From Antedon mediterranea (Eukaryota > Echinodermata > Crinoidea > Comatulida > Antedonidae), in the NCBI RefSeq assembly GCF_964355755.1, contig NC_092674.1:23772001-23836000 (forward strand): 64,000 nucleotides of DNA, in the 5' to 3' direction. The notes under the pieces were generated by a model. The model was not told where the DNA came from. It saw nothing but the letters and a program-made list of their open reading frames with translations, and did no database searches. This document shows, one piece after another, positions 6,189 through 59,430 of the stretch (positions within the stretch are counted from its first letter, which is position 1; the number at the start of each line of letters is the position of its first letter). The position numbers were made by a program, and so were the translations under genes.

Positions 6189-6278
6189 AGCTTGGTTCCC
6201 AAAAGGACATAAGTGATATATAATCATAGTTTTGTCAATCTATAATGTAAGTCTGATATATCTCAGTGCTGTCAAAAG

Positions 6279-6418: not shown

Positions 6419-6846
6419 GCGCACTCACGCATAGTAATTTACAAGTTGGTTACTTCCAAATTTAGCGATAACTAACTGTGCACATGAAACCAACTTGCCC
6501 AGACAAGCCCTACACTATTGAAAATAACTGAAAACAACACAGAAGAAAAGCAATACAATTTTAATAGCATTACCCAAATGATTTCTATTTAGAGGAAAAT
6601 TGCATTAATTAAAATAAAATAATTAAAAACTATTGATTAAATATTTACAAAAATGAAAAAAAAAGATTAGATTATGAACCATATACAATATAATAACCAA
6701 TAATTAACGGTGGGATTTAATTTTATGTGATCATATTATCCCGATTTTATCTGCAATTCTGTTATGTTGCGCCATAAAGGTTCTGTTATATGAAGAAAAC
6801 CATTTAAATACAGTGCTTAGTCAGTGTTTTTCACAGAGGAAAATGA

Positions 6847-7030
6847 TAAGGGTCTTTCACACCATTTTGTTTTCAAGATGCAACACACGGCTCTCACCAA
6901 TCTTGTTATTCGGTGCATGTAATCTGCATGTCGCATCATGGAAACGAAAGATTTCTAATGCTGTACGTGCAATCTGACGTGAACCTGAACGGGAAGCATA
7001 GCGGCTCATAGCAGGTGTGAAAGACCCTTA
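6847..7030. mobile_element. short inverted-repeat element
   Basis: TAAGGGTCTTTCACACC at the left end is the reverse complement of GGTGTGAAAGACCCTTA at the right end, 184 bp apart. No coding sequence. A small non-autonomous DNA transposon is the simplest reading. Confidence 0.7.
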
Positions 7031-12772: not shown

Positions 12773-14044
12773 TTTAACGTTTATGAACTTTTTCGGAAAT
12801 CTGTTGTACTATGGAGCGTCAGTGATGACAAATTAATCAAATCGGCGGTATAATAAAATAATATGACTGATTTCTCACGAAAAACAAAATAGCATAAATA
12901 TACTATAGCTATTAAAGAATTATAAAGTCTGATTTTTTTACGTCGGTCGTATAAGACAATTTTATTTGTCGCTTATGCTGACCTTGAATAAATGACGTAG
13001 GCCCTATTAATCTATTTCGGACGAGACATGTACTTGATAGGCTTACAGCTAAAATAAAACACCAACAAATCATGGAGGTATAAAATATTTTTATACCTGC
13101 ATGAACAAATACGAATGTATATACAGTATAAATATTCGGTATTAACACAATCAACCCTAAGAAAATTCCTATTTACAGTCGAGTAGTTAGTTAGGAATGT
13201 TAACAGTTCAGTTCAACCTGTGCGAACACCAATGACCGGCCTACTAAAATATAGTAAAACATTCCATGACGTACGTTAGGCCTAACGAGATGATAAAACT
13301 GATTTACTTAGAATAAAAAGTAAAAAGTTGTTGTAAATTTCCACATTACACAGGTGTATCGTACCCTAAACTGAAAAAAAATGGAACAATCCCAAGCGCC
13401 CAATGGTGATGAGAGTTAACGTGCGCAAGGATAACGAATTTAACATGAATGTGTTATGACTTTTGTTCAACACGTCACGTACGTACAATAACTAAATATG
13501 TATTGATTTCCGTTTTGAATAGTCAAATTAAACTATAAAAGTGCCTTTTATTTTGTAAGGATGGATTGGCGCGGACGTCCTTCTTTACCTTGTGGTTAAA
13601 TTTACCATTCTGTTATTCAATGCAAATTGGCAAAATTCCTTAACCACCTGGAATACTCAACAATTGACTTTAGCGTTCATTGTGTACGTCGTGTAGTGGG
13701 AGGGTAGATTGTTAAGGTGTGTCTTGATAATCGAAAGGAAATATACGTCTTACAGTGCAATAGGCTCAAAGGGGGTAAGTTACCTGATATAGGCCTATTA
13801 GATAATACTTGTAATTACAGTATTACATTTGAACAATATTATGTAATATAATTATATTATATGTTTAGGCCATAATTCAAAAGCAAATTGGCATCCGTCC
13901 TACATTACGAAATTGTACAACTGATTGAGAAGTTTTTATTCGTCAATAACTATCAGGGTGTGCATACTTATTCTTGTAGAATAGAATTAACTTGACAGAA
14001 TAAACTCAATTTTAAGATTTTAAAAATATTTTACATCTTAGAAA
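12773..14044. promoter_or_regulatory. divergent interval between PGRMC and the large secreted-protein gene
   Basis: The two start codons face away from each other across 1.27 kb, so this interval must hold both promoters unless one gene has a distant 5' exon. No convincing TATA or initiator was fixed. Open frames here (for example 12912-13154, minus) have no domain. Confidence 0.4.
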
Positions 14045-14804
14045 ATGGTATTTCTTGCGAGATATCATGTATTGGTTGTATACACATTCACCCTATGTTG
14101 CCTGGTCGCTGTATATTCACAAGGTAAGCCTATGTCTGTGTATTCACGTGTTGCCATAAAGATTGGCCCCTATAAGACGCAACAAAAGGACGGGAGACGC
14201 AACGCACAGACGTAGACGCAACGCAAGGACTGTACGTAGACGAAACTCAAGGACGTTGACTCAACGCAAAGTTGACCAATAGCAAAGAGTTCCATCGCCT
14301 GTGATTGGTCAAAAACTTACGTTGCGCAAACGTTGCGTCTCTGGTGGGAACCAATATTAGTGACAGTTTTGTAGATTAAGTTATCAGCACGGTTGTAACT
14401 TTTTGACAGCCCCCGTTTTGCAACCACACCCCTTTAATTTTCGTAGATACGCCCACAGAGACATGTAAATTAGACTATTTATTTTAAAGTTTTGTTAATG
14501 TTGATCAATATAGGCCTACAAACGTACAGTATTTCTTAAAAGCAGCTACACCGAGGAGGTACAGTTTCTTTATGGTTGGCAATTATAAATAAACCACACA
14601 AAAATAATACATAGTTTATGAAATTTCTTATTACAATACATTTTTAAATAGGAGACTTGTCGGAGTTGCTAGGAAAATATCAGGAACGAGCGGAGGGGAT
14701 GTCATCACGACGTCTAAATCTTATAAAGAAAATAAAGCAGCAGTCTAATCAACATCACAGGGCTAAAAGAGAACTGCCGAATACGTTGACGACCATATCA
14801 AAAG
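14045..14804 (+). other. signal peptide and basic propeptide of the large gene (exons 1-2)
   Basis: Exon 1 encodes Met plus a hydrophobic run (YTFTLCCLVAVYS), a clear signal peptide. Exon 2 (residues 27-77) is charged and rich in Arg, Lys and Gln, and ends its basic stretch with HHRAKR at 61-66, an R-X-K-R furin-type site. Cleavage there would release the mature protein just before the first propeller. ATG at 14045 is chosen because it opens the signal peptide. Confidence 0.75.
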
Positions 14805-17800
14805 GTAGGTCTAATTCACGTCTTGTTTCGGGGCCGTAGACGAACGAACATTATACATACGTCCGTAAATAAATCGAACAAAAAGTCGTCCCCGTGATGG
14901 TCTTCACGATTTTACTAGACATTAAATCATATAGCGGATTAATGTGTTGTATAAAGTATCGCCTTCTTCGAAATCGTCTGAAAATGAAAGCTTAAATTTG
15001 GGAATAGTACTGCGGCGTATCAAAGAGAGAAAGAGAGGGCGGGCTTTGTTGGGCGCATTGATCTTAAACATGTGAAGTGAATACACAGTATAATCTTAGT
15101 TCATCTACATCTGTAGCACATTATAATAAACCATGTCATAACTTTGCTTGTTGTATTTATTTAATAATAAAAAAGTATCACTCTTACAAGTTACAAATAA
15201 AGTTGGCAATTTAATAAGAAAATAATTGTCCTGAGTTATATACTGTAAATAATTCTGTGTACTCTACATATTATTATTTTGACATTTGAAATTGTGAATT
15301 ATCAAAAAGATGTAAAAAAAAAAAAAATGAAAGGATCCTGTCAAAACTGAATCTACTGCAGTTACTGAAGCAACTAAATTTTGTTTGATCTTTAACCTGG
15401 TTACATTATTACAGTGTGAATGCCTAATAAACATCTGTATTACAAACTACTTTAAATCATACATTGAAAAAGGGTAACCTGCAGTAGAATCTATTTCATA
15501 TCTAAAGCTCTGTCTACACTATCAAACTTGATGTGAAAAAAAAAATGTGATGTGCCAATATATGGACACGATGATGTCATATCACTACCATATGGGCACA
15601 TCACACTTTTTTTGTCTGTGCCTGACATTTAAAGTATTCTATTGGACAAATGTGTTGTTGTCTATTGGCACAGTCAACCACACTGATAGAAAACTTTACA
15701 TTAAATGCATGGTCAACCAATAAAAAAAAATACATGCACAGTTGAACATGGTAGATGCCACTATCGTAATAAATTAGTATAGTAATTATGGTTTTGTGGA
15801 TGGTTTTCCATCAACTCCAAGTAATATTTTAAACACCTCAGCACAATCATGTTCTTCTAAAAATTTGAAAAGCATTCCAAGATCCATGTGATAATCTCGT
15901 CCTCCTTTCTCCATGCCATGCGGTTTAAACGCTTTCTCCTCGAACCCGGTAAATTTTCTCAATTCAGCTATTTTCCCATTCTCCAATGGAACATCTTCTC
16001 GATGTTTGCAGGAAATTTTCTTCCAATTCAAACGTCTCAACCTGTGCCAATACTCCTCGCAAGATTCTCTATCGCCCTCTAGACAAATCACACCTGGTTT
16101 GCCTGGTAACGAAAAGCCTGTTACTTTAAATTCTTTTGCCCATTCTAAAATATCCCGCCTTTTGTATTTGCTATATATATGATGGCTGTGTATCCATAAC
16201 CTAGTAAATGTAAAACAATTTTTAGACTTTTTAACCAGTTCTTCTGTGTCCTCTTTTGTTGCTATTATGATATATTTTTGGCTGTTATCCTGAAGCCAAG
16301 TGATTGCTTCCCCAACACAGAGTTCCCCATTTAAAGACTCTTGTATATGCTGCTGTAAATCTTCGTTTAGTTTTCTTTGGGAATCCCGTGAAAATGAACT
16401 TGATCGTACGATTAATTCCGGTGCCTCGGATGGGTAACCATGAGGCAGATCACATATCAATTTTATCTGCAAAAGTATTGTAAAGAATATTATTTATTAA
16501 CAAGAAATAAAGAAATAAAAAAAATATAATATAGACTATATAGTACACTACTTACACCTAAATTTTCCCCTATAATTATATTAACGGCATATGAAATCTG
16601 ACGTAGAATGCTAGGCCTCTGTACTCCTGCAACTTCGTCACATTCATGCGCGCAAAACTCTTTTATGTCCGCGATCACATCTGGGTCATCTATCTCTAGC
16701 TCACCGTCATTGGGGTACATACACTGCATCATTTCAAGCTCCGATACCTGTAGCTCAAACATACTACGCATATTTTCATAAGCCATGATTATTAATTATT
16801 TTTGGTTAAATACAAATAAAACAAAATACAGTATTAGAAACGAATTAGAAGAGGAAAAGGGGGACATAGCGTAAACTTCCCTTCCACGTGTCGAAAATAG
16901 TTGACCTATGTTTTGTAAACAGAAAAGGACGTCCTCAAACTACCCAACTAGTGAGCCCTCTATCTTCCATCTACGCCACAATTTCGCGCGTGACAAAACG
17001 GCGTTGCGGGAAATTTAAAGTTCAATATTAAAATGAAGCAAAAGTCAAATCCTGCTTGGTTATTGGGGGTGTACAGTTAGGACGAAGGTCAACTAAATAA
17101 ACTACCTAGGTCTAGGCTATCTATTCCTGATGTATACCTAGTTACTAATACCTGTACTAGTAATTAGGAATTATGTTGATCACACAGGTGGAGAAGGTTA
17201 CTTTAGGCCTAACAGTCTAATAATATAAGCCTACTACACTAGCTAAACCTAGGCCCATATTATTATAATAAATAAGCTAGCTCCACAGGGATTTATATAC
17301 CTCCCTGCTCAGAGGAGGTCTATTATTATTAGCTAGAGCCTAGTAGTGTAGACTAGCTTGCCTTAGACTAGAGGATGAGGTCACAAAGCAGGGAGCAGCG
17401 GCAAGAAGAATTTTATTTATATTCTATAAAATCAAAACTGAAAATGTAGTTAAGTAATAGAAAATACTGAACTTAGCCTACTGAGCGAGGGATTGGTAGG
17501 CCTACCACCTTTACCTACTACGCCGATGGCTATACTACTAAGCTATAGGCCTATAGCTAGGCTAGTCTATATGATGCCTATTATGTATAACTAATTAAAC
17601 CGTTTAAATGGATTTAATTGTATATATTGTTTTCTAGATTTGGCAGTCTTGGTGAATGTCACTTCTTTGGACAGCGACTTACAGATTTCAAATCCAACAC
17701 ACATGTCAGTGTTTTGTGCAGGAGATGGCACCTTCTATGTTGTTGTTTCTGGAACGGATGGTGTTAATTTGGTAACCAAGGTCTTTGAACATGATGAGGT

Positions 17801-20800
17801 AAAGTTTGCAAGCGAGCGTAAACAAAAGATTGGCCTACATTCATCACCAGCCAATTCCCTGTCATCACTGTACGGTTAAACAATTTGAACCACAGTGTAT
17901 GAGCATAGGCACACTGCCTACTCGACAGTGGTGTAATGGCTATGAGCGCTCACTGGCTAAACCCAGCAGCCCCGGAGCTATTGGAGGCCCCTGAGCAGTG
18001 TCCATAGAATAAAACTGGCATTAAAATATGCCGAATAGCTAGGCTAAAAACGCCTGAGGCCTCCAGCACTGGAACTTGAGGGGCCACTTAGGTTTCCTAA
18101 ACCAGGGGCCTCAGACCTCTGCTTTGCACCTTTGTGCCCACTTTTATCACCACCGTTTTATTGTGATGTTACTAATCTAGGCCGGGTAGGGGATTTAATT
18201 TTCCGATATAAAATTATGTCAAGTATGTTATTAACATGCTTTAGTAGTAAATTTAACTTATTATATTGTTGGACTTTTCATTTGTCTTCACAACGCGTCA
18301 ACAACAACAAAACATCAGACGATCAAAAATAATTTTACGAAAATCGTGTATTGTCAGTTAGTCTAATGAATTGTATCAATTTGTTTATGCTACACTAGGT
18401 TGCGGGAAGATACGATGAGGTCCAGTCATTTATTACCCCTACTTTGAAAGACTTGGAAACGTTGACCATGACACATGGTGACTCCTACATGGTTTTAACT
18501 GAAATAACAGGTTTTGTATATTTTATTGTAATTTTCTCCTCCTCCTGGATAAGAATACTATAATTGATAACCAAGATATAAAGCTACTCAAAAAAGTGAT
18601 TCACCATGCAGAGGTACTCCAAAATATGTTGCAATATTGGCCAATCAAATATCACATGATCAAACCCCTACTCATTCATTTCACAAGATAGTGTCCCCTG
18701 CCCCTCCCACCCCCGGGATATTATAAATATATGATTATGATATAGTAAAAAAAATGTTACATCTTTAGGCCAATTTATACAGTCAAGCGGTAAAGAAATA
18801 AACATTCTATAGTTTTATTACCATTAACTAATCTTATTCCTTATGACCATTTACACACGACTTAAAGCGTATGGGCAGTTTCCGCTCAGGATAGATACAT
18901 ATTCTACATGGGACAAGCTACGCGGTTTTCAGCCTACTGTTGACATTTATAGCCTAAAGGCAAAAATAAACATAATTTAATTGTATGTGTGGCGTTGATT
19001 AATAATAAAAAAAAAATTGATTGGATTTTTCTTATTGCATTCAGTTTGTAGGTTTGTTTCTACATGTACTGTAATCTACAAGTTCAACTTGGCAACCAAA
19101 CAGTTTGAGATTGTGCAGGAGATACCGTCCGCAGGGGCAATAGATTTGGAAGCCTTTGAACTTGATGATGAGTGGTGTCTTGTGGTAATCAACTCCCTAC
19201 CAAGAGTTAATGCTACAGATGAGGGTGTCGTGTATGAGTGGAGAGGTAATTTGCATATTTGTGTACTGTGACATGTGTACTGTATATGCAGAATTCTTAT
19301 TAAGGGGACATCTTCTCTTCAGGACACAACAAAGTTTCTCGTCAATATGCATATATTTCCCCTCATTTATTTCAAGTTGTGTTGTCCGACTGAAAAAACA
19401 ATTCTTACAATTATTTTTTTTTTAATATACCATTTTAATGTTTACATATAATAGTTATCCACTTTGACAAAAAATTGGATCCAAAAAAAAAATTTTCCCT
19501 AAAATTGGTTGAATTTAACCATCTATTGTCAAACATTTTTTTTTTCTTACTAATTAATCTTTAATTAATGTTTTTGGGGGAAAATACATCTTTCACAGGA
19601 AGGTGTTCTCTTAGTAGGGGTGTCCAAGAAGAGAGTTCTACGGTATAAATTATAAAAAAGCATACATCTTAAATTTCCGGTACGCTGCTGCAAAATAAGA
19701 TTTAAGAATATTTTGAATTGATTTTTTTCTTTCAGAGGGTCATTCCATCTCAGATCACCCAATGAGTTAAACCCTACCTCTTCCAATTTTGATGAAATTT
19801 GGTATATGGGTGATTCATAGCAATTAAAGCCAAAATTTCAAATTTTAACTTTATTGGACCAACGGTTTTCGAGATATCGCAATTTCAATTTTCGGTTTTT
19901 ACGCAAAAAAGGGCGCGTCCGCCACGTTTCAAAGAGCTGTATCTCGGGAACTATAGGTTCGATTTTAAAAGCAAAGGTATTTTTGTAAAGGGGAGACCAT
20001 AAGGAATCTAAATATACTAATTGTGTGTGTTTTATGTTAATTTTAAGTTGAATAAAACTTTGACATATATTTTGACCTTGAAATTGACCCCGTGGAACAC
20101 GCCCGTTTTGTTGGTGACTATCATGAAAAATGTAGCCCTACGTGTCAACTACAACATATACAAAAATTGGAGGGGTTTTTTTCTTTGTTTCCATGAAATT
20201 ACAATTTGAAGTTGACATACCTCTTCCTTTTAGTGTATTTTTGGTGTCTGTCCATGCATTACTTCAATGTCAATTTGATGTATTCCAAAATTAATTTTAT
20301 TTACAAACTAAATATTATTATAATGTTACAATTGTCTATGTCTGGCCTTTACTCCTTGTCATCTGGACAATTCAAACAGTATTTAGAAATGTTGTGGCGA
20401 TCATTTTGGGAAATACTGTAATTCCTAGTCGAAGAGGATTTTATAAACGGAGAGGATTTTATAAACGGAGAGGCTATAATACAATGTACATTTGATTCAG
20501 GAATCCAACAACAGTCTTCTTTGGACGGCCAATAAAAGGTTTTCGCTGACCCATGAGGATGCATAAATTTAATTTGAAAATCCCCAAACTCTTCTGAGAG
20601 TGAGACATCCACCACCAAACCAATCCATGGGACACCATCATAACTACAGCACACAAAATTCTGAAGTCTAATAATGGTGGGTTGTGTATCAGCAACAATT
20701 TCATTTTCATCACTGAAAGATTCTTGAATCACTACCACATCCGGAGGGTTTATCTGGGTACTAAGTTTGTAGACCTGCATCTGTGCCAGAGAAACGGGAA

Positions 20801-23800
20801 CAAAGCGATGATATTGTAATGTACCCTTGATGGTCTGGGCGAGGTTGAATCTCGGCTTTATTTCTTTTTCTACAGTAGATACCTCATCTATTCCCACATG
20901 AAAAAAGTTGATGCCTGGAATGTCCATATGAGCGAGTCATATGGCCGAGCGGTTAAGGCAGGGGCGCCGTTTACCGTACCTAAAAGACAACAACATCGGC
21001 AAGGGTTCGAGGCCGACTCGCTCCTCTCTTCAAGTCTTCTCGGATAAGGACTATAAACCATAGTCCAGTGTACACAGTTATAACATGTGTGTACTTTAAA
21101 GGACCCAGTTCATTATTCGAAAAAGAGTAGGGGGTTACCCCGGTGAACTGGTTCACACAATAGCCCCTGTATCAGGGGGATTACCACCTATCTGATAGGA
21201 CAGTGACTAATTCACTATTGATAATCCTTGGCCACATTGCCTAAAGACATAAAATAGAAATAAAAAATTACACAGTAGTCGAACATACTGAGAGATGTGA
21301 TAATATGACATTCAGTCAAACGCTGTAAGCTTCTCTTAGTGACAAGCCTCTTAACTGTTCCACCTATGCCATCACACGCACTCTTGCCATGTGATGTAGC
21401 GAAAAAATTCCACTCGGCGTCTAAACCAAAATCTTCCTGGTAGTGGCAAAGGTTAATAAAGTAATATTTGTTTTTGTATTGGCCGCCACATCCATCTGTG
21501 AAATAATGAACTTTTTTCATGGTTGGTAGTTTTGTTTTTATATAGGGGATGACAACCTTTAAAAAGGCATATACAGTAACTGTTGTATGTTCTCTGCAAT
21601 CACTTATTATGCATATGTTAATGTGCATAATAACATAGTAAGGACACTAAACTATGTGTCAAAATTGATTTGAAAAGTATGTGAGTTACCCAGTATTTCT
21701 CATATCAAAATACATCTACTGTTTAAGTGGGCCTGATGAGAAAGCGTAACAATAAGACACCTTAACAGTTAGTGTTCACACTGTGTATAAGTATAACAAC
21801 ACCAAAAATACACTAAAAGGAAGAGGTATGTCAACTTCAAATTGTAATTTCATGGAAACAAAGAAAAAAACCCCTCCAATTTTTTTATATGTTGTAGTTG
21901 ACACGTAGGGCTACATTTTTCGTGATAGTCACCAACAAATCGGGCGTGTTCCACGGGGTCAATTTCAAGGTCAAAATATATGTCAAAGTTTCAACTTAAA
22001 ATTAACATAAAACAAACACAATTAGTATATTTAGGTTCCTTATGGTCTCCCCTTTACAAAAATACCTTTGTTTTTAAAATCGAACCTATAGTTCCCGAGA
22101 TACAGCTCTTTGAAACGTGGCGGCCGCGCGCTTTTTTGCGTAAAAACCGAAAATTGAAATTGCGATATCTCGAAAACCGTTGGTCCGATAAAGTTAAAAT
22201 TTGAAATGTTGGCTTTAATTGCTATGAATCACCCATATACCAAATTTCATCAAAATTGGAAGAGGTAGGGTTTAAAATTCCATTTTTTTTGGGTGAACTG
22301 AGATGGAATGACCCCAAACACTGGAAGACCTTAGGCCTACATCTCTAGCAATGAACATTGATGCCTGCCAATTTCTTTAACCTTACTTAATTAATTAATT
22401 TGTATTAGGTTACAACTTTGATGAAGTTTGCGATTTTCCCGTTAATCAATTCATCGTTGATGTCTGTTCGTTCACCATTCACAACCTCAAGTTTATCGCA
22501 CTCGCCAGTAATGATCTATACATCAGACGTGTATCGGAAATCCTGAGGTTCAGCCCCAATGCTGAGGATTTTGTCCACCATCAGTATATCTACGTGGAGG
22601 GCGCCCTTGACTTTGAATTCTTCACCTTTGGCGTGGGGATCGATCAAGAATTCTTTCTGGCTTTGGCTATCAATAAGTTGAGATTAGATGGTAAGCAACA
22701 TTAGATTTCCTCATCCTTATTGTTTCATGGTATTGACCAACCCAAACATCTTGAAACCTTCAGAGACAGTTTTTTATATAAAGCTCCGTCTTTGCTGAAT
22801 GCACTACCCATCAAAATTCGTAACTCTCGACTAAAAAAATATCTCACCCCTAAATATGTTAGAGCTAGGCACTGTCCCTGAGGGTTTCAAAATTTTTATA
22901 TATATTCTTTTATATACATAACTTTATTTTTATTATATATATTTATATTTAAGTTGGTCACTTCGTTTGTTTTCCTTTTTCTCGTCTTTTTGTATTTGTT
23001 ATCGTTCCCGTTTTTTAAGTGTTGAGGGCCTTCTGCATGTCAGCCCCGGATGTTTTGAGTCACCCTCATTAAACAAAGTTTAATAAAAAAAAAAAAAACA
23101 TGAAGCAGCACAATACATAATTAACAATCATAGGTTCATGATAAACCCAAATTAACTTTGCAAAATTTGAGAATTTTGTAATATTTTGATATAAAACGCT
23201 GAACTATGAATTCGCCACGAACCATTTCCGAAGCTATGCAAATAGTCGTGACGTAGAGACAATCAAGCAGAAAGCCAAGCGCGAGCTGTCAGCAGGAAAT
23301 GCAATATTAGCTAGCACTAGGATGTCAACATGTATCGTGTACGATTTTGACAGTTTTCAAATTAATTCAATTTCAGTATCATCACGGTTTAGAATTAATT
23401 TTCTGTGCCAGCTGTTTATATATTTATTTGAATAAATTTGTGAGGGTGTTCATTGTTCAGAACAGTTTTTAGGGGGCATTTATCCTTTTGGGTGTAAAAT
23501 GGTAGTATATACTAAAAATAAAACTCTTGATAAAAAAAAAATCACAATTAATATTAAGAAGTGATACTAGATAGTACAAATTTGAGGTTGTTCATTCAAA
23601 GTTGTTTCATCAGTCAGCTACCTAATAATGTTTATATTTTACTTTTATACAGTAGGCCTAAAACTATGCAAACAGGATATATATACTATCATCTTTTCAA
23701 ATACTTTTTATTGGCCTGATATATTGTACCTCAACATTTCTCTCATTCGCATAATAGCCTGTTGTGGTATGTGTTTACAATTTTTTTTTTCTCAACTATT

Positions 23801-35800: not shown

Positions 35801-38800
35801 GGAGGACTTTAGGTATGGTACGGCACCTATGCCTTAACCGCTCGACTATTTAACTATAATAGTAAGTTTGTCCAGTAGTTACTTAACTCAACTAGTTTTT
35901 TACCTTTCCAATAATTGAATATGCTTAGTTTTACCAAAAAAAGCTTATTTTGGAAAAATATAAGAAAGTAAGACTAGTAATAAAAATCAAGGTGATATTG
36001 GTCATGGGCCAAATCTAATATTTATCTCAAAATAGCAATTTCATAGCATAACCCGTTACAAGATGCGATACATTGATGGTAGTGCTATTTTCATGGCATT
36101 ACCTATGACTTACACATTTGACTCATGTGCACTTTAAAGAATCCAGTACATCTTTCGGAAGAGTAGGGGGTTACCCCGGTGTACTGGTCCATTCAGCCCC
36201 CTGTTTGGTGACATGAAGGGATCCTTATGGGAGGAGAAAGTTGTGGTATGTCGTCCACACCTGTGTGTAATTCAGCCCAGTAGGTTGCAAGTCACAAGTT
36301 ATTCCCAATTTACATTGACTTGTAAGCAAAGAAATCTATTTCTGACTTATAAAGAGCAAAGTAATCTGTTTGCTGTTTCTCATTTGTAGGTAACCTTACC
36401 GCTGTACAGAACATAACAGTTGATGGATACTTCAACATGTACAAGATTGATGTGTTAGCAAATAGAGTACTACAAAGCACAGATAAGTTTGTTGTATTTA
36501 CCAACAATGTTACCATAGAAACGCTGGAGGTGTACAATGTAAGTAAATGTAAGCTCTGTTTACACTATCACACTAGTTTGACAATAAGTATGGTGGTGAT
36601 ATGCCCAAATATGGTAGTTATACGACATCATTATGTCCATATGTGCACATCACATTTGTTTGTCACATAAAGTTTTGATAGTGTAGACAGAGCTTTATAT
36701 TTAGATGCGCACATACCATAATTAGTAATTATCTATGACTGCTTCAATCCCGTAGCCAGGTTTTACAGAGAGATTTTCTAAAAGAGGGGTAAAAATTGCA
36801 ATATGAAGTTTCGTAAAGGAGTTTTTCCTTTCATTGCTTGCATTGTGCCTACTTTGATGCGTCATACAAGCTTTAGATTACCCATAGCATGCTTTTTTGT
36901 TTTAATAAAGGAATTTGTGATAGAAGATGATGTGTTATGTGGCATAAATCTAACTGATCTGAGGCTTTCATATCTAAGCAAAACCTTATCACAGACAATC
37001 TCAGCTTCCATCCGATTCTCTGATATTGAAGTGGATGACAACCAGTTTCTAAATAATGATATCACCGTGCTAGACTACCAAGGTGTGATTGGTCACTATG
37101 TGAATGGTATTGATTTGTCATTTATGTTGAATCTTACAGAAGAGGGAAGAGACAATCGGATAATAAATAGAACAGTGTCATTTATGTTTGGTCTTGCTGT
37201 AGGTATGTATAAGTCTAGGTAGTACTGTAGTGGTAGAAATGGCGTTTCATATTTGTAATACTGGAATCAATCTAGTATTATGGATCTGTATGCCTGGGTG
37301 GAAAGTGAACAATTTTAATTATTTCTCAGATAGTTAGTGTGTTTTGGAGACACGGGGCAGCAGCTGTATAGACCATAAGTGACTTATTGCCAGAGAGTAG
37401 GCAGGGGTCTCATTTTAGAGTTTTTTAGCTAGACGAGGGATCAGTGAAATTGCATTTTTACTGACCGTCCTCCAGGTTCCACCCATCCCATTCAAACACA
37501 GAATTGGCATTGTAAAATGATATTTGTAGGCCCTACCATGTGGGCTATCACGGGTGTCAATGGAATTATATGAGATCACATATATGATGTAATAGGCCTA
37601 CTATTTTTATGAGCTGAATTAAAACATTACTATTCAATTTGTCAGAACATATAACTGTAGAAGGAACCATCAATGGCATGGACATTCCAGGAGATGTTAT
37701 GCTGATTGCAGCCGACAACGTAGTCACTGCAACAAAGACCTTTTTTGACCCTGTATATATCAACAATGATCTGCAGATGTCAAACTACGGGACAATCGAT
37801 GGAGTTGATATTTCAGAATGGGCTTCAACCGTCACACTTACCAGTGATGATGCAGTAATACTTGTTACTGTGAATTTTAATAGAAGTCTTAATTTCCTTC
37901 AAGATTTAACGTAAGTTAAATTTCTGTTTAAAGGGTGGTAGGCCTACAAAAGCTCCTTCTAAACAACAAGCCCAACTAAGTCCTATCAAAATTAACCAAG
38001 CACTACCAGTAAAACGTGTAAATTATACCAAATAGAATCAATTTAGAATGTCAATTGCATTTTCATCTATAAAATTATACGATTTTGTCATCAAAAAAAC
38101 TTGAAATCTATATTTTAACAATTGACATTCTATTTGCCGACACACTAGTTGACTCAATACAGAAATTATTAAAGCAAATTATTTAATAATAATCCAATAA
38201 CATTGAAGTATGTGTTGGCATAGGAATGAACAGTTTGGGTATAATCCGAACTCCTAAAATCTTGAATGATGTTTTTTATAGCCGACTTCTATCGTAAACG
38301 TCAATTAGTCTTACATTCATCTGAATGATGACTTAGCCAGGACTGTTTAAAGCACCTTTGTCTGGTCCCAACATTGACCAAGGGCTTCTCTCGTCCAGTG
38401 ACAACCTTAACCAGAGGAGAAGCATAAGCCAATACGTCTGAGGCAGATACTAGATGCAGGGGCTGCCATTAGAGTCAGCAGTGCTGATTCCAAATGCCTA
38501 ATGGGACCCCAGCTCCATATACAGCACCCGGTATTCCCAGATGGTCTCCCATCCAAGCTTTAACCGGGCCCAACGTTGCTTTACTTCGGTGATCTGATGA
38601 GAACCGGTGTTTCAAAGTGGTAAGGCCGTACTGAATGATGTGTACCGCAGTAGAACCCTCCTTTGCAACATCTCTATTCAGGGATGTTCATATCAAGGCA
38701 ACATTTTCTCATTAAACAAACAATATGTTTAACACTATGGTCAATCCCTATTAAGGGAACACATTAATAATTGGTTTCTACTATTGTAGTACTATTCATC

Positions 38801-41800
38801 TATATATTCACTTTGACCAAAAATGGGATTAAAAAAAAACATTATTTACCTAAAAAAACTGTAATTTAAAGCAAATAATAGTCAAATTAGCTGCCAGCCA
38901 ATGGGTTTTGGTTGAATTTAACCATTTATTTGGTTTTTTCATAAGTGAAAACATTATTTTTATTTTTTTTAAAGTGATTAACTTTATTAAAACTACAAAA
39001 TAACAATTCGGGTCTGATTTAATTTATATTCATTTTTCATGTTTTTTGGGGACAATACATAGTTAAATTTATAGTTATTTAATTTATCGACAAGACACGT
39101 TGTCATATCCACTGTAAATATACGTGTGTCTTTACAGTGTTATTGGTTCAATTGATAGTGTACGCATACAATACGATAGCATTCTTTTGACCTGGGGAGA
39201 TCAGTTCATTAATGTACCTGTGACATTTGCGAGTGACCTTGCCTTCTATACAATATATCTTGATGGACTTTTCAATGGATTTGATGTTGATGACGTGTAT
39301 TATAATACGGTAAGATAACATACTGTACTTGGTATAACAATGAGAAAAAGTTAAAAAATTTATGTTAAACGTTAAGAAATGTTCAATACACTGATATTGG
39401 AAGGGCATTCCAATTAGAAATGGATAAACGGAAGGAAAATTTGAACATATTTCTTTGCAATGTCTTGTATTTTTTATATATGATATTTTATGTTCAACTT
39501 CAATTTATGTAATGATAAATAAGTTCAAGTTCAAATTTGTCAGGCGTAATAAACTTTTCTCATGTCTTATATCTTTTAGCTTTATGATGAAGGACATCGG
39601 TCCCTTACGGGTACAACATACACTGGAGAACCTACATTTACAAACATCACATTGTATGGACTGATTAATGACGTAGATCTTTTAAACTTGCTTGAAAACC
39701 TTGAGAATACCGTGTTCTTTGATGTATTCGCTGATAGCGTGGAGGATCGGTGTGAAGCTATTGATCAGCTGCACAAAACTCAGGAAAGTATGTACAAATA
39801 TTGAATATGTATGAGTTTAATGAGCTCATAGTAAACAAATAATGAATATGTATGAGTTTAATGAGCTCATGAAGTAAACAAATAATGAATATGTATGAGT
39901 TTAATGAGCTCATGAAGTAAACAAATAATGAATATTTAATAAGCTCAGGATAGAAAGTATACAAATAATGAATATTTATGAATTGAATGAGCTCAGCAAA
40001 TTAAGTATAGAAATAGAATTAAGAAAGTAATTTTCCAAATAATAAATATTTATAAATTTAGTGAACTTAGCAAAGTATAGAAGTAATGATATTTTCAAGT
40101 TGAATATATGGCCTGATGTACGTGTAGACTTAATGCAAGCAAAAATATTTTAATCTCAACGATTATAAGCAACATCTTAGTTAAGTCGAAGATGCTCTCC
40201 AGATGGAATGCCATCCTGAGATGGTAGTAGTAATTTTGTTTATTTTATTTATTTCATTTATATGTAATTTACTTTCTATGGACCAGAGTTTCCGAAATAA
40301 AAGATCGAATGAATGAATGAGAATACGATTTAAATGAATATTTAATGAGCTCAGAATAGATAGTATATACAATAAAATAAAATACTGAGTGTATGGATGA
40401 GCTCATTAACAGAGAGCAAGTATTTACACTATTTGCAAAAAAAAAATATATTGGCAATGTTTAAAAACAAAGCATGATAATATCAAGTAATTGTTAATTA
40501 TTAACATATTCAAGATTATTCTTGAATTTGGATGAAATGTAAACTTGTAACAAACTTACTTGTTTTAAATGTGTAGATCGTGCAGTACTAATCGAATGTA
40601 CCAAAGTTCTAAAGAAAATCTCAACGACTGGTTCTGTTAGTTGGCATTCTTTCGTCCTTGAACATAATCAATTACTATTAATTGGAACAGCAGGAAATGG
40701 CACCAGTGCTTGTAATCCAACAACTTTATACTGGTGGAATAAAAGAAGGGGTAATTATGAAGAAGTAGTGGTACGTAAAAATCTATGTTTGACAGGAAAG
40801 TTCTGTATCCCCTGTTGTCCCTGAATATGGATGGGTGTCCCAAACAAGAAGTGTCCCAAATGAGCGGTTCTACTATAAGTATCTAAATATTGTCCCCTTA
40901 ATTGATCTTGGCCATACTGTACTGTTGGTGTCCCAAAGGAAGTGTGTCCCAAAGGAAAAGGTGTCCCAAAGGAAATTGTGTCCCAAAGGAAAAGGTGTCC
41001 CAAAGGAAAAGGTGTCCCAAAGGAAATTGTGTCCCAAAGAAAATTGTGTCCCAATGGGAAGTGTGTCCCAATGGGAAGTGTGTCCCAATGGGAAGTGTGT
41101 CCCAATGGGAAGTGTGTCCCAATGGGAAGTGTGTCCCAAGGGAAGGGTGTTCCAAGGGAAGGGTGCCCCAAAGGAAAAGGTGTCCCAAAGGAAAAGGTGT
41201 CCCAAGGGAAGTGTGTCCCAAGGGGAAGGGTGTCCCAAGGGGAAGGGTGTCCCAAAGGAAAGGGTGTCCCAAAGGAAAGGGTGTCCCAAAGGAAAGTGTC
41301 CCAATGGAAGTGTGTCCCAATGGAAGTGTGTCCTAAAGGAAAGGGTGTCCCAAGGGAAAGGGTGTCCCAAAGGAAAGGGTGTCCCAAAGGAAAGGGTGTC
41401 CCAAAGGAAAGTGTGTCCCAAGGGAAGGGTGTCCCAAGGGAAGGGTCTCTTTCAAAGGAAGTGTTCCACTGTACAGAAAATTTAACTAAAACGATATTAT
41501 GTATTTGTATGTCTACCTTTTTACTGTATACTATAGGCACTGTCCAGTACCAAACAACTGTTTACTACAGACTAAAGAGCAAATATCACTGAACAAAAAC
41601 AAAATGTTTATACAAATTATGTTGCTCCTCACCTTTATAATGATTAATATTGTAAAATGCAGCCACTAATTTATACATTTAATCATATTGTTGATTTATT
41701 GTGTCTATTTTAATTCAGTTATGAATTAGCATTTTTAATTTCTTGCATTTGATTGATTTATACATACCTTTTGACATTAATTTCATATTGATTGCAATAT

Positions 41801-44800
41801 TTTTAATTCATTGATAATATTGAGGTATTGGTAAATCTAATTTTGTCTTTCATTAGACAATGTATCCTTCAAGAGCAGATGATGTGAGTGCATTTTTATT
41901 TGAATACATCCAATTTATGGTCATAGCCAGTCAGGGAGACTACTTGGAGGAGTGTTCATTTGATGTACATCCCACGTTAGATTATATTCCTATAACTAAT
42001 TGTGAGTATATTCGAGAGAGTGGTACAGGTACTGGGCTTGGTGGTTGACATGCTTGCTTACCAATCCCATGGTCCTTGGTTCAAATCCATTCTTTTTTTC
42101 GTCTACTACAGTGCCACTACCTTGTACTATAAGACCTTTATTTAGTCTGTATTGCTATTGGATGGTGTGGAAACTTTTTTTTTAAATGGTTCTATTATGC
42201 CAATCAAGAGACTAAACCATTGCTGACCCCAATGTGGACCATTCCATTCATTATTGGATGGTATAATTTATCTACCACCTAGAATGAAAGATCGAAATTG
42301 TAACACATTCAAAGATTTCTATTCTATTTGTACAGTACAGTATGTATAAATGTGTTGTATTTTTTAGCATCTTCTGGATGTGTGTGGGTTCTATATCTAA
42401 AATACGATACAGCTTATTTCTATCAAAAGATCAATTTTGACAATGCAGCAGATGTGGAAGTCTTTGTAAACCCTCTCACGAGAGAGAATTGCATGACAAT
42501 CATAGAGGCAGCAGAGGTCAATGCTCGGATATACACTACAAATTCTTTAGCTGCTGTGTATTGTATGAAGTATTATAAATCAGGATTTGTGCAAGTAACA
42601 ACCATTCCAACTCGTGGTGCAGTGAAGGTAAGTCATGTTAAAGCTCGGGTACAGGCATGAATTTTAAATATAATATCTGGTTAATTAAATTAATCAAATA
42701 TTTGTAATAGAAATCAAGACGAAAAAACATGAATTTCCCTTAAAATGGTCAAATAAAAACCAAGAAAACTTTTTTTCAGTAGTTAGGTAGTTTAACCTAA
42801 TGTAATGATATGTCTGGTGACTCCCTAGAAGGTGAAAAAAGATGGTGGATATACGGTGGATAAGTTTTGCTATAGCATGAAAATAAAACTCTGAAGTTGA
42901 ATAAAAATAGAAGAAAACTAGAAATGTAAAATTCAAGTTATATTACCTATATTTAGTCATCTGATAACATTTTTTACCACACCGTTCATTTTTCATAGTT
43001 TTTAAAAAATGCCTCTCTATTTACAACATTTGTGTACAAAAGAACAAAGATTTTACTGTGTAATTTGAACTATCCCCCCACTGATAAGAAAGTGCTTATT
43101 TTCAACAAGCTGGTGGAACACAAATAAAATCCCAAAAATTATGAAACATAGGGGAAACTATAGATCGATAATTATTGGAATGTATGATCAATAGAAATGT
43201 AAGGAATCTTTGTACTGTTTTACTGTTTCCACTTGGATGCAAAAACATTATCGCAATCTGACAATCACAATCGATTCATTATTTGAATAGTTGCGTGTCA
43301 TTGGTGAATTCGCTTGCGTTACGCTTTCAATCTTTGTGCTACGTCCTATTGGGGACCACTTGGCTCACTAAAAAATTTGCCGCAAACTGTGATCGCGTTC
43401 TATCAGACGCACACTAAACGATTCTGATTGGATAATTAATTACTTCGCTATACGGCACTCCCTGACATACTATAATAAATCAGAACATGTCATGAGCAGT
43501 GGAATTTTTTAGTGAGCTATCTGCTAACGTTCGGCGCACACACTTGAGTAAAATGACACGGGTGCCAACAAATATTAAACACGATATATATTTTCCTCAG
43601 CGGCATGCGTGGCTGATTCCTTACGAAATACCCGGCGCACACCGTTAGTTAAGTGTTACTCGTGCCAGTTGGCTCAGCCGAAGGCTCTAGTGTGAGCCGG
43701 GCTTTAGGAAACATAACAATTGTTTTTATTGTGCCTTTCTTTTGATTACCAAAGCAAATGAGTATCATAAAAGCCACTTTTAATATTGTTTTATATGTTT
43801 GATGGTTTTTAAAATAAAGATATGGATATATAAATGCCAAACTGCACTGTTCTAAATGCACTGCTACTCAAGTTTAGAACAATTTTAATTCTGGGATTTC
43901 CATTTGCTATTTTCAACCAGTTGTTAAATATGTAAATATTTTTACCAGTTTTATTTTACAATTGTATTTTAGGAATTTTCCCTTTTAGACTATGTTTTAC
44001 TATATTTGTAAACATGTTCTGAACAATTCATTTTTATATTTCCCTTTTATTTTCTCTCCTTTTTAACATTGTAAATTTTGTCTGTCTTTGTATTGTGATT
44101 TTAAAGGTTTAGGCTTTTGCAAGTTTTTTTTTTAATGCCTTTCATGAATGTTTTTAATCTATTAATATCTCTCCTTTTTATCCTGTCTCAATATGTTTTA
44201 AATAAAAATAAAAATTTACCTATAATATATGTTACAGATTACCCATTTTTTTGTTGATGGTATACTTCACCTGGCGATTGCTAACTTCCTTGATTCTTAC
44301 ATATCGTCTGTGGCGACCACCTCAGAAGTTTGGATCCAGTCTGACAACTATACCTTTACGAAAGTTGCTGAAGCAGACTCTTTTGCTGCCATGGATATTT
44401 TAGAAATGGAGATAAATGAGCAATATTATATAGTCATTGCCAATGGTTTTCAGGGAGCATTGACGGATTGTAATTTTGATGTTCCAGTACAGGTGTTTGA
44501 GTGAGTTATTTTTTTTCCTAGAACTAGATGAACTCATAATTTCTAAAGTTTTTGGTATTTGTCAAAAATCCTGTGATTTTATTCACCAATCACACTTTTT
44601 AAAATTTCAATAGCTAATATAATTATCTCCGCCTAAGAGCTTATGTTTTGACCCCTGTAAGTTTGTCAGTGTACAGGCTTGAGGCCACAGTTTTATCCAA
44701 AACTTTTCCACATAGTAGTAGTTCAATTATTTGGGGTGGCTAGGAAAGTGCCTTCTAACTTATTACACTAACACAAACTGTTTTTGTACTGTAGGTATAC

Positions 44801-46252
44801 TATGGGGTCACCAAATCTTGAGTGGAGGCAAGACTTGACTGCATACGGTGCATTAGATCTGGATTCGCACAGTGTGAATTCAAAACATTTACTCTTTGTG
44901 CTCGATAGGACAGACACTGTGACAGTTTACAAATACCAAGGGTCGTTATTGATGTTTGTCCGCATTAAAATTCTACCGGTAGAAGGTAATTCAATTAAAT
45001 TCAATTTATTTCAGACAAACTGTCCATATGAAACATATACATACAATAAAAAAGAAATACGAAGAATTATGTGACAACCGTCATGGAGAGGGAGGACCAA
45101 GAATTATTTAAAGTGCCTCTCTCCACTTGAAATACATTTTGGAATAAAAAATGAACAATTCATATACATATTTTGTTTTTGCTTTTCATAATTGTGGAAA
45201 GAAAACTATAAATTGTTAGCCTAAAAAATTCATAAAAAGATGGAACATTATTATCCACAAACAGATTTCTTGCATTGAGATATCGGGGTTGATTGATTGA
45301 TATCCTTTTGAAATAATTAGACCTAAAGGAGAACAATACATATTAATACAATACGATCTAAACAAGTAACACTTGATTGATTCGGAGAAGTAGAAAGGTA
45401 TTATACAGTATACCACAGTATATCAACATGATTAGTTTTTAGGTCTGCCTGCGTTTTTCAACCACACTAACATGAATGCATTCCTTTTCAGGAGCCCAAA
45501 CCTTGCACGTATTCTCTCTACATGGTACTAGTTACATACACGCTGGTGTCGGAGCCTACGATCTTGAAGATCGTTTCTTCTCAGATCAGGAAGTATTGCC
45601 TATACCAATTAACTCCCAAATCCTTCAAGCTAGAATTGACCAAACAGGTAATTTTTTTAAAGCAAAATTCAGTGTACAGTTTAGAATATATATCCAATTC
45701 TCAGTACAGCATCTGTAATTAAACCAGTATCTAGGAAAATTCTGTCATACACTGTCACATAGATATACCGTATCTAGACTTATTACTTACTTAATTTGTT
45801 GTTGGGCTTAAAGCAAGTGCTTAATTATGTCCCTCTGGATGTTCCTTCCTACGTTCTCCTATATGGATGCGTGAAATAGCAAAATTTGTACAACGAGCAG
45901 AGTCTTCCTGTTTCAATTTTTGCCTTGAAAATAGTTTCTCAGCTGAAGTATTATACGTATGAAACGCCATGTATGCCAAAATATTTATTTTTCGCCACTC
46001 AGACTGTGTGTTTAATACATATATAATGGGTATGACAAATTGTATTGGGAATGGCCCTAGATGCTGATGTATTATGTAAAATTGTAAATACAGTAATAAT
46101 ACTTCATAATCATATACAGAGAAACTAGAAAATGTACATGCCAATGATTGTTATATATTTATATATTGTCATTATATTTATATTATTTTGTTAGTTTTGT
46201 AATTCAATTTTCTTTTTTTTTTTTAGAATTCGAGACTCAAAGCTGTTCTTAA
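14045..46252 (+). CDS. large secreted protein: EAR propeller - coiled coil - about 20 beta repeats - EAR propeller
   Basis: Thirty-three exons join with GT/AG sites into one 2,115-codon frame: 14045-14123, 14652-14804, 17638-17798, 18399-18510, 19045-19245, 22409-22690, 23803-24342, 24755-24910, 25111-25244, 25457-25619, 26262-26483, 27050-27184, 27574-27780, 28432-28614, 29536-29693, 31088-31379, 32038-32214, 33102-33299, 33994-34197, 34571-34677, 35251-35413, 36390-36538, 36911-37202, 37646-37910, 39138-39309, 39580-39787, 40577-40770, 41857-42001, 42368-42627, 44238-44500, 44795-44985, 45492-45647, 46227-46252. Lengths sum to 6,348 nt. Residues 1-26 are a signal peptide; no later membrane segment is seen, so secretion is inferred. 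Asn-X-Ser/Thr sequons are common. EAR/EPTP repeats are known from LGI, TSPEAR and VLGR1 and mediate extracellular binding; the function here is unknown. The weakest junctions are the exon 4 donor (gttttg) and the tiny last exon. Confidence 0.88.
14159..14352. mobile_element. palindromic MITE, family P, intron 1
   Basis: GACGCAAC / GTTGCGTC blocks mirror one another and the right end reads GCGTCTCTGGTGGGAACCAA. The inner TTGACCAATAGC and GTGATTGGTCAA are the family's inverted CCAAT-like pair. Confidence 0.65.
15504..15625. mobile_element. palindromic MITE, family A (truncated right end)
   Basis: Starts AAAGCTCTGTCTACACTATC and contains the inverted GATGTGCC / GGGCACATCACACTTTTT pair, but loses the terminal repeat on the right. 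Confidence 0.75.
15786..16786 (-). CDS. RWDD2: RWD domain-containing protein 2
   Basis: Two exons, 16786-16556 and 16466-15786, join in phase 0 to 303 residues, the normal size for RWDD2A/RWDD2B. Residues about 10-125 form the RWD fold, with ELEMMQCMYP at the start and a LPHGYPSEAPEL loop, the family's YP..P hallmark. The remainder (about 150-300) matches the family's C-terminal DUF1115 region: LWIHSHHIYSKYKRRDILEWA, then GKPGVICLEG and EYWHRLRRLNWKKI. The biochemical role of RWDD2 is not established; RWD domains usually bind proteins. The gene lies wholly within intron 2 of the large plus-strand gene, antisense to it. Its own upstream DNA (16790-17040) holds CACGTG and GCGGGAAA, possible E-box and E2F sites (inference). 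A or B subtype cannot be assigned. Confidence 0.93.
20349..21628 (-). pseudogene. transposase remnant split by a SINE
   Basis: Two minus-strand frames, 21628-21215 then 20927-20349, look like parts of one protein. The first carries FTDGCGGQYKNK, FINLCHYQEDFG and FFATSHGKSACDGIGGTVKR, and the second carries PWIGLVVDVS, IKFMHPHG and CCWIPESNV. I know such blocks from uncharacterised transposase-like proteins that are multicopy in invertebrate genomes; the catalytic family is uncertain. The N-terminal part is missing and a SINE sits between the halves, so this copy is dead. Confidence 0.6.
20930..21238 (+). mobile_element. tRNA-derived SINE inserted in the transposase
   Basis: The head ATGGCCGAGCGGTTAAGGC (A-box-like, tRNA-Leu/Ser type) and GGGTTCGAGGCCGACTCGCT (B-box-like) are spaced as in a tRNA. 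The body TCTTCTCGGATAAGGACTAT and GAGTAGGGGGTTACCCCGGT is shared with the other SINE copies in the window. Confidence 0.85.
22724..23099 (+). mobile_element. LINE 3' fragment with poly-A tail, intron 6
   Basis: The plus strand codes the end of a reverse-transcriptase-type ORF, with SLLNALPIKIRNSRLKKYL and a stop near 22880, matching the 'LWN.LP..IR...' C-terminus common in LINE ORF2. A 3' UTR containing GTCAGCCCCGGATGTTTTGA and an A-run at 23085-23099 follow. It is 5'-truncated. Confidence 0.8.
23100..23802. other. rest of intron 6, nothing recognised
   Basis: A moderately GC-rich stretch (23210-23330) has no open exon or known element that I can identify. The remainder is AT-rich up to the exon 7 acceptor. 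Confidence 0.3.
24354..24473. mobile_element. MITE family A (internal part), just after exon 7
   Basis: The GTGATGTGCCCATATATGGA / GGGCACATCACACTTTTTT inverted pair is present, with the outer ends worn. It starts about 12 bases after the exon 7 splice donor. Confidence 0.7.
25272..25400 (+). mobile_element. tRNA-derived SINE head, intron 9
   Basis: AAGTGGCTGAGCGGTTAAAC is the A-box-like half, followed by a diverged body ending before exon 10. Confidence 0.5.
25679..25775. repeat. tandem repeat, unit about 24 bp, intron 10
   Basis: AATCAAACTTAAGTGAGATA is repeated about four times (TTC linker), followed by a diverged copy. Simple local amplification. Confidence 0.85.
25985..26110 (+). mobile_element. 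retroelement 3'-type fragment, intron 10
   Basis: TGATGAAGGGCTAGCGTTGC followed by CCGAAAGCTCTGCTAAC is a motif I associate with 3' ends of Penelope-like or related retroelements in deuterostome genomes. The class assignment is from memory of that motif only. Confidence 0.35.
27199..27400. repeat. dispersed repeat built on AGGGG/CCCCT inverted motifs, intron 12
   Basis: GGAACCCCTATTAAAGGGAC and CCCCTGAATAGGGGTTGGCC alternate in inverted orientation. Related blocks flank the MITE at 34750-35080 and the minisatellite at 40805-41480. Probably a MITE family. Confidence 0.55.
27781..28431. other. intron 13, nothing recognised
   Basis: No exon or known repeat was recognised. The antisense frame at 28225-28467 overlaps exon 14 and has no domain. 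Confidence 0.3.
28676..28870 (+). mobile_element. SINE body fragment, intron 14
   Basis: GTGCACTTTAAAGAATCAAG and TGGGTTACCTGGTGCATTCA match the body of the tRNA-derived SINEs. The tRNA head is absent. The 135-codon frame spanning it is incidental. Confidence 0.65.
29762..29962. repeat. dispersed palindromic repeat, family R, intron 15
   Basis: AAAGATGTATTGTCCCCCTG at the left and TTTTTAGGGACAATACA at the right are mirrored, as in 5815-6188. Confidence 0.65.
30480..30990. repeat. small tandem repeat and SINE-like block, intron 15
   Basis: GGGTCATTTTTATTAA is repeated at 30513-30550 (with one more copy near 30065). From 30757 the block TAATAATAGTTTATTCTTAT then ATATAGCACATATAAGCAAG matches 35450-35480, pointing to a dispersed retroelement tail. 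Confidence 0.45.
31380..32037. other. intron 16, possible retroelement remnant
   Basis: GTATGATCGAAACGTCAAGA near 31876 resembles retroelement 3' motifs; nothing coding was seen. Confidence 0.3.
32230..32345. mobile_element. MITE family A, 15 bases after the exon 17 donor
   Basis: Starts TTAAGCTCTGTCTACACTAT and carries GTGTGATGTACCCAAATATG. The right end is worn. Confidence 0.75.
32704..33018 (+). mobile_element. tRNA-derived SINE, near full length, intron 17
   Basis: A-box-like GTGCTGGCCGAGCGGTTAAG, B-box-like AAGGGTTCGAGGCTCACTCA, the body GTGCACTTTAAAGAACCTAG, and a tail of AAAC repeats at about 33008-33030. It is the best copy in the window. Confidence 0.88.
33300..33993. mobile_element. 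intron 18 with MITE family A at 33791-33915
   Basis: TAAAGCTCTGTCTATCAAAC and GTGTGATGTGCCTAAATATG mark a worn copy of family A. Other parts of the intron hold nothing recognised. Confidence 0.6.
34750..35085. mobile_element. MITE family A (34867-35044) nested in an AGGGG-type repeat, intron 20
   Basis: Outer sequence CCTCTATTAAAGGACCACAT and CCCCTGAATAGGGGTTAGCC belongs to the repeat also seen at 27199. It is interrupted by a full family A copy from TTAAGCTCTGCCTACACTAT to ACTAGTTTAATAGTGCAGTG, then resumes as AGGGGTGCCCCTATAAGAG. The order of insertion is therefore clear. Confidence 0.75.
35450..35850 (-). mobile_element. SINE on the minus strand interrupted by a second retroelement tail, intron 21
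   Basis: The SINE body (CCGAGGTAACCCTACTCGTC, TTATAGTCCTGAGAAGAC) ends with GCCTTAACCGCTCGAC, the reversed A-box. At about 35600-35775 it is split by a foreign block ending in ATAAATAAATAAA-type tail sequence, so that retroelement inserted later. Confidence 0.65.
36118..36300 (+). mobile_element. SINE body fragment, intron 21
   Basis: GTGCACTTTAAAGAATCCAG and GAGTAGGGGGTTACCCCGGT match the SINE body; the head is missing. Confidence 0.7.
36550..36697. mobile_element. MITE family A, complete, 11 bases after the exon 22 donor
   Basis: Starts TAAGCTCTGTTTACACTATC and ends TTGATAGTGTAGACAGAGCT, with inverted inner blocks. It makes up about 40% of this 372-base intron. Confidence 0.85.
38331..38630 (-). 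mobile_element. 5S-rRNA-derived SINE (SINE3 type)
   Basis: On the minus strand the element begins TACGGCCTTACCAC and runs on through GCTTGGATGGGAGACC and GGGAATACCGGGTGCTGTA, the 5S rRNA order of blocks including the internal control region. A non-5S body follows. The 300 bp element is bracketed by a perfect CTGAATGATG direct repeat at 38321-38330 and 38631-38640, the target-site duplication. Substitutions in the 5S part make it a retroposon rather than a working 5S gene. Confidence 0.85.
38690..39065. repeat. dispersed palindromic repeat, family R, intron 24
   Basis: Contains the family's TTAGCTGCCAGCCAATGGGT centre and ends with TTTTTTGGGGACAATACATA. Confidence 0.6.
39790..40410. repeat. 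tandem repeat, unit about 43 bp, plus LINE tail, intron 26
   Basis: AATGAATATGTATGAGTTTA then ATGAGCTCATGAAGTAAACA is repeated about three times nearly exactly and then decays to 40085, with stray units at 40330-40410. Between them, 40235-40320 ends TTACTTTCTATGGACCAGAG plus a GAATGAATGA tail, a LINE-type 3' end also seen at 54465-54530. Confidence 0.7.
40922..41465. repeat. GTGTCCCAAAGGAAA minisatellite, intron 27
   Basis: About thirty units of 16-18 bp, GTGTCCCAAAGGAAAGG with variants CCCAATGGGAA and CCCAAGGGAA, are clustered by variant type. Units of 18 bp keep all frames open on both strands, giving spurious frames up to 261 codons. The flanks contain TGTCCCTGAATATGG and GTGTCCCAAAC, so the array seems to have grown out of the repeat family at 27199. 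Confidence 0.9.
42028..42260 (+). mobile_element. tRNA-like SINE, second family, intron 28
   Basis: TGGGCTTGGTGGTTGACATG and CATGGTCCTTGGTTCAAATC sit as A- and B-box-like blocks. A related element is at 49625-49835. It starts 27 bases after the exon 28 donor. Confidence 0.5.
42628..44237. other. intron 29, repeats of unknown class
   Basis: 42640-42760 matches 54610-54760 (ACAGGCATGAATTTTAAATA and ATGAATTTCCCTTAAAATGG), a dispersed repeat. 43228-43365 is a strongly diverged family P MITE (TTGCGTGTCATTGGTGAATT). 43970-44215 is T-rich and ends in an AATAAAAATAAA run, like a LINE 3' end. No exon was recognised. Confidence 0.45.

Positions 46253-58195: not shown

Positions 58196-59430
<1,235 letters not shown>

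Follow-up and report, generated by a model that had tools for sequence, protein, structure and literature searches.

Most of what is known about the EAR (EPTP) family comes from genes linked to epilepsy, deafness and teeth. LGI proteins join leucine-rich repeats to a single propeller, and in LGI1, which is secreted, the EPTP domain does the binding to ADAM22. In TSPEAR, a single EAR region is accompanied by a domain of laminin-G type, and ADGRV1 (VLGR1) carries EAR repeats together with Calx-beta repeats and a seven-transmembrane (7TM) domain. Here we describe a gene of the crinoid Antedon mediterranea, found in a stretch of 64,000 nucleotides that was analysed as a whole (hereafter the window). 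Its predicted product shares with TSPEAR and ADGRV1 the placement of EAR repeats in an extracellular protein, and with LGI1 a secreted EAR/EPTP propeller, but it differs from LGI proteins in having two propellers and a long shaft of beta repeats. A Pfam scan of the protein in four pieces, at E up to 10, returned no leucine-rich repeat family, no laminin-G/thrombospondin-N type domain, and neither Calx-beta repeats nor a 7TM domain. An earlier note on this DNA had set the protein apart from LGI, TSPEAR and VLGR1, and the absence of their partner domains from the Pfam matches agrees with this. Among the literature matches listed, we found no two-propeller EAR protein.

We refer to the gene at 14045-46252 of the window (plus strand) and to its product as the C5 gene and the C5 protein. 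Re-derived from the DNA, the gene comprises 33 exons that form one closed frame of 6,348 nt, encoding 2,115 amino acids with no internal stop. All 32 introns have GT-AG borders. The exon number, the length, the single frame and the stop at 46250 match the figures of the earlier note exactly, and the order that it had proposed, from signal peptide and basic cleavage site through an EAR propeller, a coil and beta repeats to a second EAR propeller, proved right. The features of the gene are as follows.

14045..14123, plus strand: exon 1, with the start codon and the predicted signal peptide, residues 1-26 (reading frame; hydropathy)
14652..14804, plus strand: exon 2, with the putative propeptide and the RAKR cleavage site at 14759-14770 (residues 63-66)
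17638..24134, plus strand: N-terminal EAR propeller, residues 78-440, exons 3-7 (part) (Pfam EPTP; LGI1 profile match)
24135..24894, plus strand: helix-favouring, heptad-bearing region, residues 441-556, exons 7-8 (crude heptad and helix-propensity scan)
24895..39690, plus strand: 26-unit shaft (each unit about 42 residues long), residues 557-1672, exons 8-26 (repeat profile, hexads, sequons)
39691..40617, plus strand: short helix-favouring stretch with Cys 1693 and Cys 1712, residues 1673-1718, exons 26-27
40618..46228, plus strand: C-terminal EAR propeller, residues 1719-2108, exons 27-33 (Pfam EPTP; LGI1 profile match)
46250..46252, plus strand: stop codon TAA (reading frame)

The model was curated by hand, with weak extra exons removed and junctions corrected; a naive automatic model had started at 41 exons. 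When the automatic procedure was rerun with parameters taken from the C5 model, 25, 26 and 27 of the 33 exons were recovered exactly at three intron penalties, in models that hold 69, 44 and 34 exons in total. As a control of the reading frame, a codon table trained solely on the intronless paralog C6 (see below) was applied to the C5 exons. The frame of the model scored best in 31 of 33 exons, where a third would be expected by chance, both with stops penalised and with stop codons left out; the latter is the fairer form of the control, because the exons had been picked for openness. The two exceptions are exon 2 and exon 33, the latter of 26 nt, and another stop-free frame exists in just three of the 33 exons. 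Searching the window by tblastn (E up to 10) with the proteins of two paralogs, C6 and C2, placed 45 of 50 matching pieces for C6 and 42 of 49 for C2 within exons of the model on the plus strand. The exons so covered, most of them in the repeats, number only 15 (C6) and 13 (C2) of the 33. That the model is wrong, or joins two neighbouring genes by eye, is a reading to which we give next to no credence and which we reject, since, although the first automatic model differed from the final one, the C6 paralog carries the entire order in one uninterrupted frame and the codon control favours the frame of the model in 31 of 33 exons. Exon joining cannot have produced the domain order as an artefact, given that C6 lacks introns, and because two paralogs share order and length, the C5 locus is almost certainly one gene.

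Several further elements lie in the introns of the C5 gene and beside it. Intron 2 holds, on the opposite strand, a frame with RWD (1.8e-12) and Prp3_C (5.2e-16) matches (15786-16493, minus) and a probable upstream exon of it without a Pfam match (16490-16795, minus). An element in intron 5 (19767-22275) has long inverted arms of 286 and 193 nt, each 98% complementary, and minus-strand open frames without a Pfam match; intron 27 contains a 17-bp minisatellite of about 31 copies (40927-41446). A frame that resembles a cytochrome-b5-like haem/steroid-binding protein lies at 12476-12808 on the minus strand (Cyt-b5 1.3e-4, at 22.3 bits just below the cut-off of 23.7). Towards the end of the window, stretches at 56804-58842 and 62132-64000 are repeated at 98-99%, about 5.15-5.33 kb apart, and near them lies a rhodopsin-type GPCR frame (59401-60396; 7tm_1 2.7e-9), to which a second frame at 61844 looks similar.

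The architecture, which the earlier note had called unfamiliar, does differ from the three described ones in its partner domains; it is not a one-off, however, as two more genes in the genome have it. The C6 paralog is an intronless frame of 2,061 amino acids from its first methionine (L037:3642-9824, minus; C6:19991642-19997824) with the same order, signal peptide through C-terminal propeller. The C2 paralog, first found by its EPTP match, is a 33-exon model of 2,083 amino acids in the same order (C2:12717321-12732474, minus). Identity in global alignments is 21.4% between C5 and C6 and 22.9% both between C5 and C2 and between C6 and C2, and in blastp the C5 protein aligns with C2 in a single collinear match over residues 231-2068 (3e-39). 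Genome searches with the C5 protein (E up to 1) matched itself and C6, those with C6 matched itself and one C5 exon, and those with C2 (E up to 0.1) recovered all three members. The family thus has at least three genes in the genome, a lower bound, given that only one of the three whole-protein searches recovered every known member and the other two each lacked one. On an alignment of only 21-23% identity, just 2 of 32 intron sites of C5 and C2 coincide in column and phase, and five introns in each gene fall at an equal place of the repeat unit. As a side reading, the intronless C6 gene is what an old intron loss, or a retrocopy with its frame kept, would leave.

At the N-terminus, the top hydropathy window of the C5 protein begins at residue 9, which fits the signal peptide predicted earlier, and the tops of C6 and C2 are likewise N-terminal. 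The furin-type site that had been claimed is present as RAKR at residues 63-66; C2 has RQKR at a comparable place, and C6 has only KR.

Both ends of the C5 protein match EPTP above the curated Pfam cut-off of 21 bits, the N-terminal propeller in two stretches (1.3e-11, 44.8 bits) and the C-terminal one at 1.2e-9 (38.5 bits), so that the search proposed by the earlier note found EAR at either end. In C2, the matches are 6.9e-12 and 2.9e-11, one per end and both above the cut-off; the C6 propellers fall below it (N-terminal E 0.1, C-terminal E 0.0015). A profile built from five of the six propellers matched four LGI1 sequences among PDB chains, the best being 5y2z at 1.4e-11, and no PDB chain other than LGI1 at E up to 1. 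PDB searches with single sequences of the shaft and the propellers were uninformative at E up to 1, so that useful matches came from profiles only. Seven EAR units had been claimed, and seven blades per propeller can be counted by eye; a local EAR profile marks five (N) and six (C) in C5, and since it was seeded partly with C5, its E-values are circular. EPTP matches also occur in a tandem cluster of EAR proteins elsewhere in the genome (C3:33798001-33848000; L039-L043), with an architecture unlike that of the C5 gene. By eye, we take this cluster to carry EGF-like, WSC-like and MAM-like pieces as well.

Between the propellers, a repeat profile marks units of about 42 residues, 26 each in C5 and C6 and 27 in C2, not counting one match outside the shaft in each of C5 (residues 487-500) and C2; the C5 match is possibly a degenerate first unit. 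Unit spacing in C5 is mostly 38-48 residues. Of the earlier claim of about 20 beta repeats, the beta-repeat core thus stands and the count rises. The profile was seeded with 11 units (six from C5, five from C6), and its final form was trained on all these proteins; the first round gave 22 matches in C2 at iE<1, with no C2 unit among the seeds. The computed consensus of the unit in this DQVITGNKTFTGDVTVDGDLTVDG repeat is DQVITGNKTFTGDVTVDGDLTVDGLINGVDISEL. In unit columns 4-26, leaving aside four glycine columns, hydrophobic residues fill 562 of 625 cells at even columns and 261 of 855 at odd ones, and glycine takes 139 of 294 cells in columns 6, 12, 18 and 24 against 19 of 1480 in the others, counts that are descriptive rather than tests, because the columns were picked after the pattern had been seen and the units are related. 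Such a hexad pattern is a sequence signature predictive of a beta-helix or beta-prism.

The shaft is also rich in N-glycan sites: 25 in C5, 31 in C6 and 38 in C2, against shuffle means of 11.6, 15.9 and 14.9. The excess is 2.1-, 2.0- and 2.6-fold, respectively, and for each protein, none of 2000 shuffles reached the observed count. Within unit columns 4-26, 48 of 50 sequons start at odd columns, as expected if the asparagine sits on the polar face. The C5 shaft is acidic (174 D+E, 49 K+R).

No Pfam model matches the 42-residue repeat above cut-off. When 40 single units were searched, BppL_N matched one of them (0.0045) and three more families one each, at 0.068 or weaker; a PHROGs scan of the shaft returned nothing below 0.18, and Reo_sigma1 reached 0.0021, below its cut-off, in the C-terminal piece of C6. 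The pattern hydrophobic-x-hydrophobic-x-Gly-x is one that the shaft shares with bactofilin and further proteins of the hexad beta-helix type; bactofilin matches the C5 protein at 0.062, below cut-off. The shaft differs from these proteins in its units, in which hexads fill about 30 residues and a linker makes up the rest. A short stretch, DETIAGKKTFTGNVEVNGSLTL, of the receptor-binding necks and spikes of phages (TP901-1 BPP; gp021 of 9ndy) resembles the shaft consensus. In PDB searches with the repeat profiles, phage fibre and spike proteins ranked high, though with weak scores: the TP901-1 receptor-binding protein matched in this stretch at E 0.03-0.07, gp021 of 9ndy at 0.0086 and a structural protein of 5e7t at 0.35-0.44, with the uncharacterised protein 5ird ranking between phage matches in one list (0.12). 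Searching for the computed consensus confirmed 8 loci of 61 pattern matches in viruses, where the hits have in common a short DVTVDGDL-type piece for which the patterns themselves had in part selected, and 0 of 274 stretches in genomes of bacteria and archaea. In a phage collection, the repeat consensus found no match by tblastn. The phage fibres, being viral rather than animal, have one such stretch rather than 26, match weakly when taken singly and lack an EAR domain. We take the link to phages to be a probable likeness of fibre design, not descent.

The earlier note had placed one coiled coil between the first propeller and the repeats. A coil is supported, although a crude scan marks more than one helix-favouring stretch. 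Helix and heptad marks follow the N-terminal propeller (C5 426-499, C6 405-454, C2 472-506) and precede the main run of units (C5 516-553, C6 489-520, C2 534-575). Before the C-terminal propeller, they occur at C5 1668-1721 (propensity only), C6 1637-1688 (heptads only) and C2 1691-1719 (both). The scan marks further stretches too, and the best heptad score of C5 lies inside the shaft (residue 1234). In the stretch before the C-terminal propeller, Cys 1693 of C5 aligns with Cys 1657 of C6 and Cys 1710 of C2.

We propose, with a probability of about 0.6, that the C5 protein is a secreted, oligomeric and glycosylated rod that bridges an extracellular coat, with a fibre shaft and binding propellers. 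The signal peptide would direct secretion, and cleavage at the basic site would remove a short propeptide. Helices next to the propellers might hold identical chains together in a bundle, which a disulfide through the cysteine common to all three proteins, ahead of the C-terminal propeller, could lock; both of these steps are guesses. The 26 hexad units would fold into a stiff beta-helical or beta-prism fibre, whose polar face would bear N-glycans at the sites observed. The EAR propellers at both ends would act as binding heads that join rods to one another or to receptors, and in this way the rods would bridge and build the coat. Among coats, the egg's is the likeliest, a weaker suggestion; nothing in the C5 sequence favours the egg over another coat. 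Against the proposal as a whole stand the C6 propellers, which lie under the Pfam cut-off, the C6 cleavage site, which is only KR, and the crudeness of the helix scan, with its top C5 heptad score in the shaft.

A special case of the bridging rod, rather than an exclusive alternative, is that the C5 protein belongs to the ARIS family of starfish, which forms the protein core of the substance in egg jelly by which the acrosome reaction of sperm is triggered. In that case, ARIS1, ARIS2 and ARIS3 would have their counterparts in the three paralogs, and the conserved ARIS domains at the N- and C-termini would be the propellers. ARIS1-3 are encoded by three genes and have conserved N- and C-terminal domains with a repeated middle; Naruse and colleagues are said to have described, in 2011, conserved ARIS domains in invertebrates. 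They are large secreted glycoproteins of echinoderms, as the products of the C5 family are predicted to be; no description of the ARIS domains was found among the literature matches listed. In favour of the identification, the three known paralogs agree in length and order and fit ARIS1-3 as known, although three is only a lower bound, and the genome carries bindin, with a core exon (PF02084, 2.3e-28) on the minus strand of C1 (L060:4810-5058). To our knowledge, bindin is known from echinoderms only. A lysine-rich repetitive long frame (5136-7145) adjoins this exon (C1, L060:4810-7145, minus). Reviews describe starfish ARIS as an egg-jelly glycoprotein of high molecular weight that is sulphated and heavily glycosylated. 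Its active glycans are O-linked, whereas the excess in the C5 family is of N-glycan sites; the same review describes a further chain of Man, GalNAc and GlcNAc that is unneeded for activity, so that the N-glycan sites do not clearly favour or disfavour ARIS. We regard ARIS1-3 as the leading named candidate, which may be the same family, and rate the identification at somewhat under an even chance; that the earlier note did not know the architecture therefore need not make it new to science. Nasrat, Polehole and Closca, insect eggshell proteins considered for their size and coat role, are a lead as possible relatives of the C5 family.

The same rod could instead serve as a general fibre of the extracellular matrix or cuticle, unrelated to gametes, with propellers that bind matrix partners. 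The acidic, sequon-rich shaft of a protein of secreted type would suit such a role, and a coral skeletal proteome lists a protein annotated as TSPEAR, but nothing points to a particular tissue, and we hold this reading as tentative, giving it about one chance in three.

A bolder version of the egg-coat proposal draws on the phage comparison. Here, an egg-coat family would be built like a phage fibre, with a self-assembling, perhaps trimeric, glycan-bearing shaft of 26 hexad units and EAR propellers at both ends that contact partners on the sperm surface and thereby present the acrosome-triggering glycans. By analogy to LGI1 and ADAM22, these partners would perhaps be ADAM-type proteins. We consider this combination unlikely. 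Still more doubtful is an LGI-like neural linker, in which each propeller would bind an ADAM22/23-type receptor and the rod would span the synaptic cleft: LGI1, which binds ADAM22, is the closest solved relative, but the C5 protein has no leucine-rich repeats among its Pfam matches and its shaft of about 1,100 residues seems long for the cleft.

The C5 protein is a real and coherent new arrangement of a known domain family, more widespread than the earlier note supposed, with a bridging rod as its inferred function. The EAR family gains a two-propeller architecture joined to a 42-residue beta-repeat shaft, and the intronless C6 paralog offers a ready single-exon construct. If the C5 family proves to be an egg-coat protein, whether the ARIS core or a different one, the domain map would allow a test of which end is for sperm binding and which for building the coat; and should the phage-fibre-like egg coat prove true, it would supply a molecular architecture for the protein core of starfish ARIS and its invertebrate relatives.
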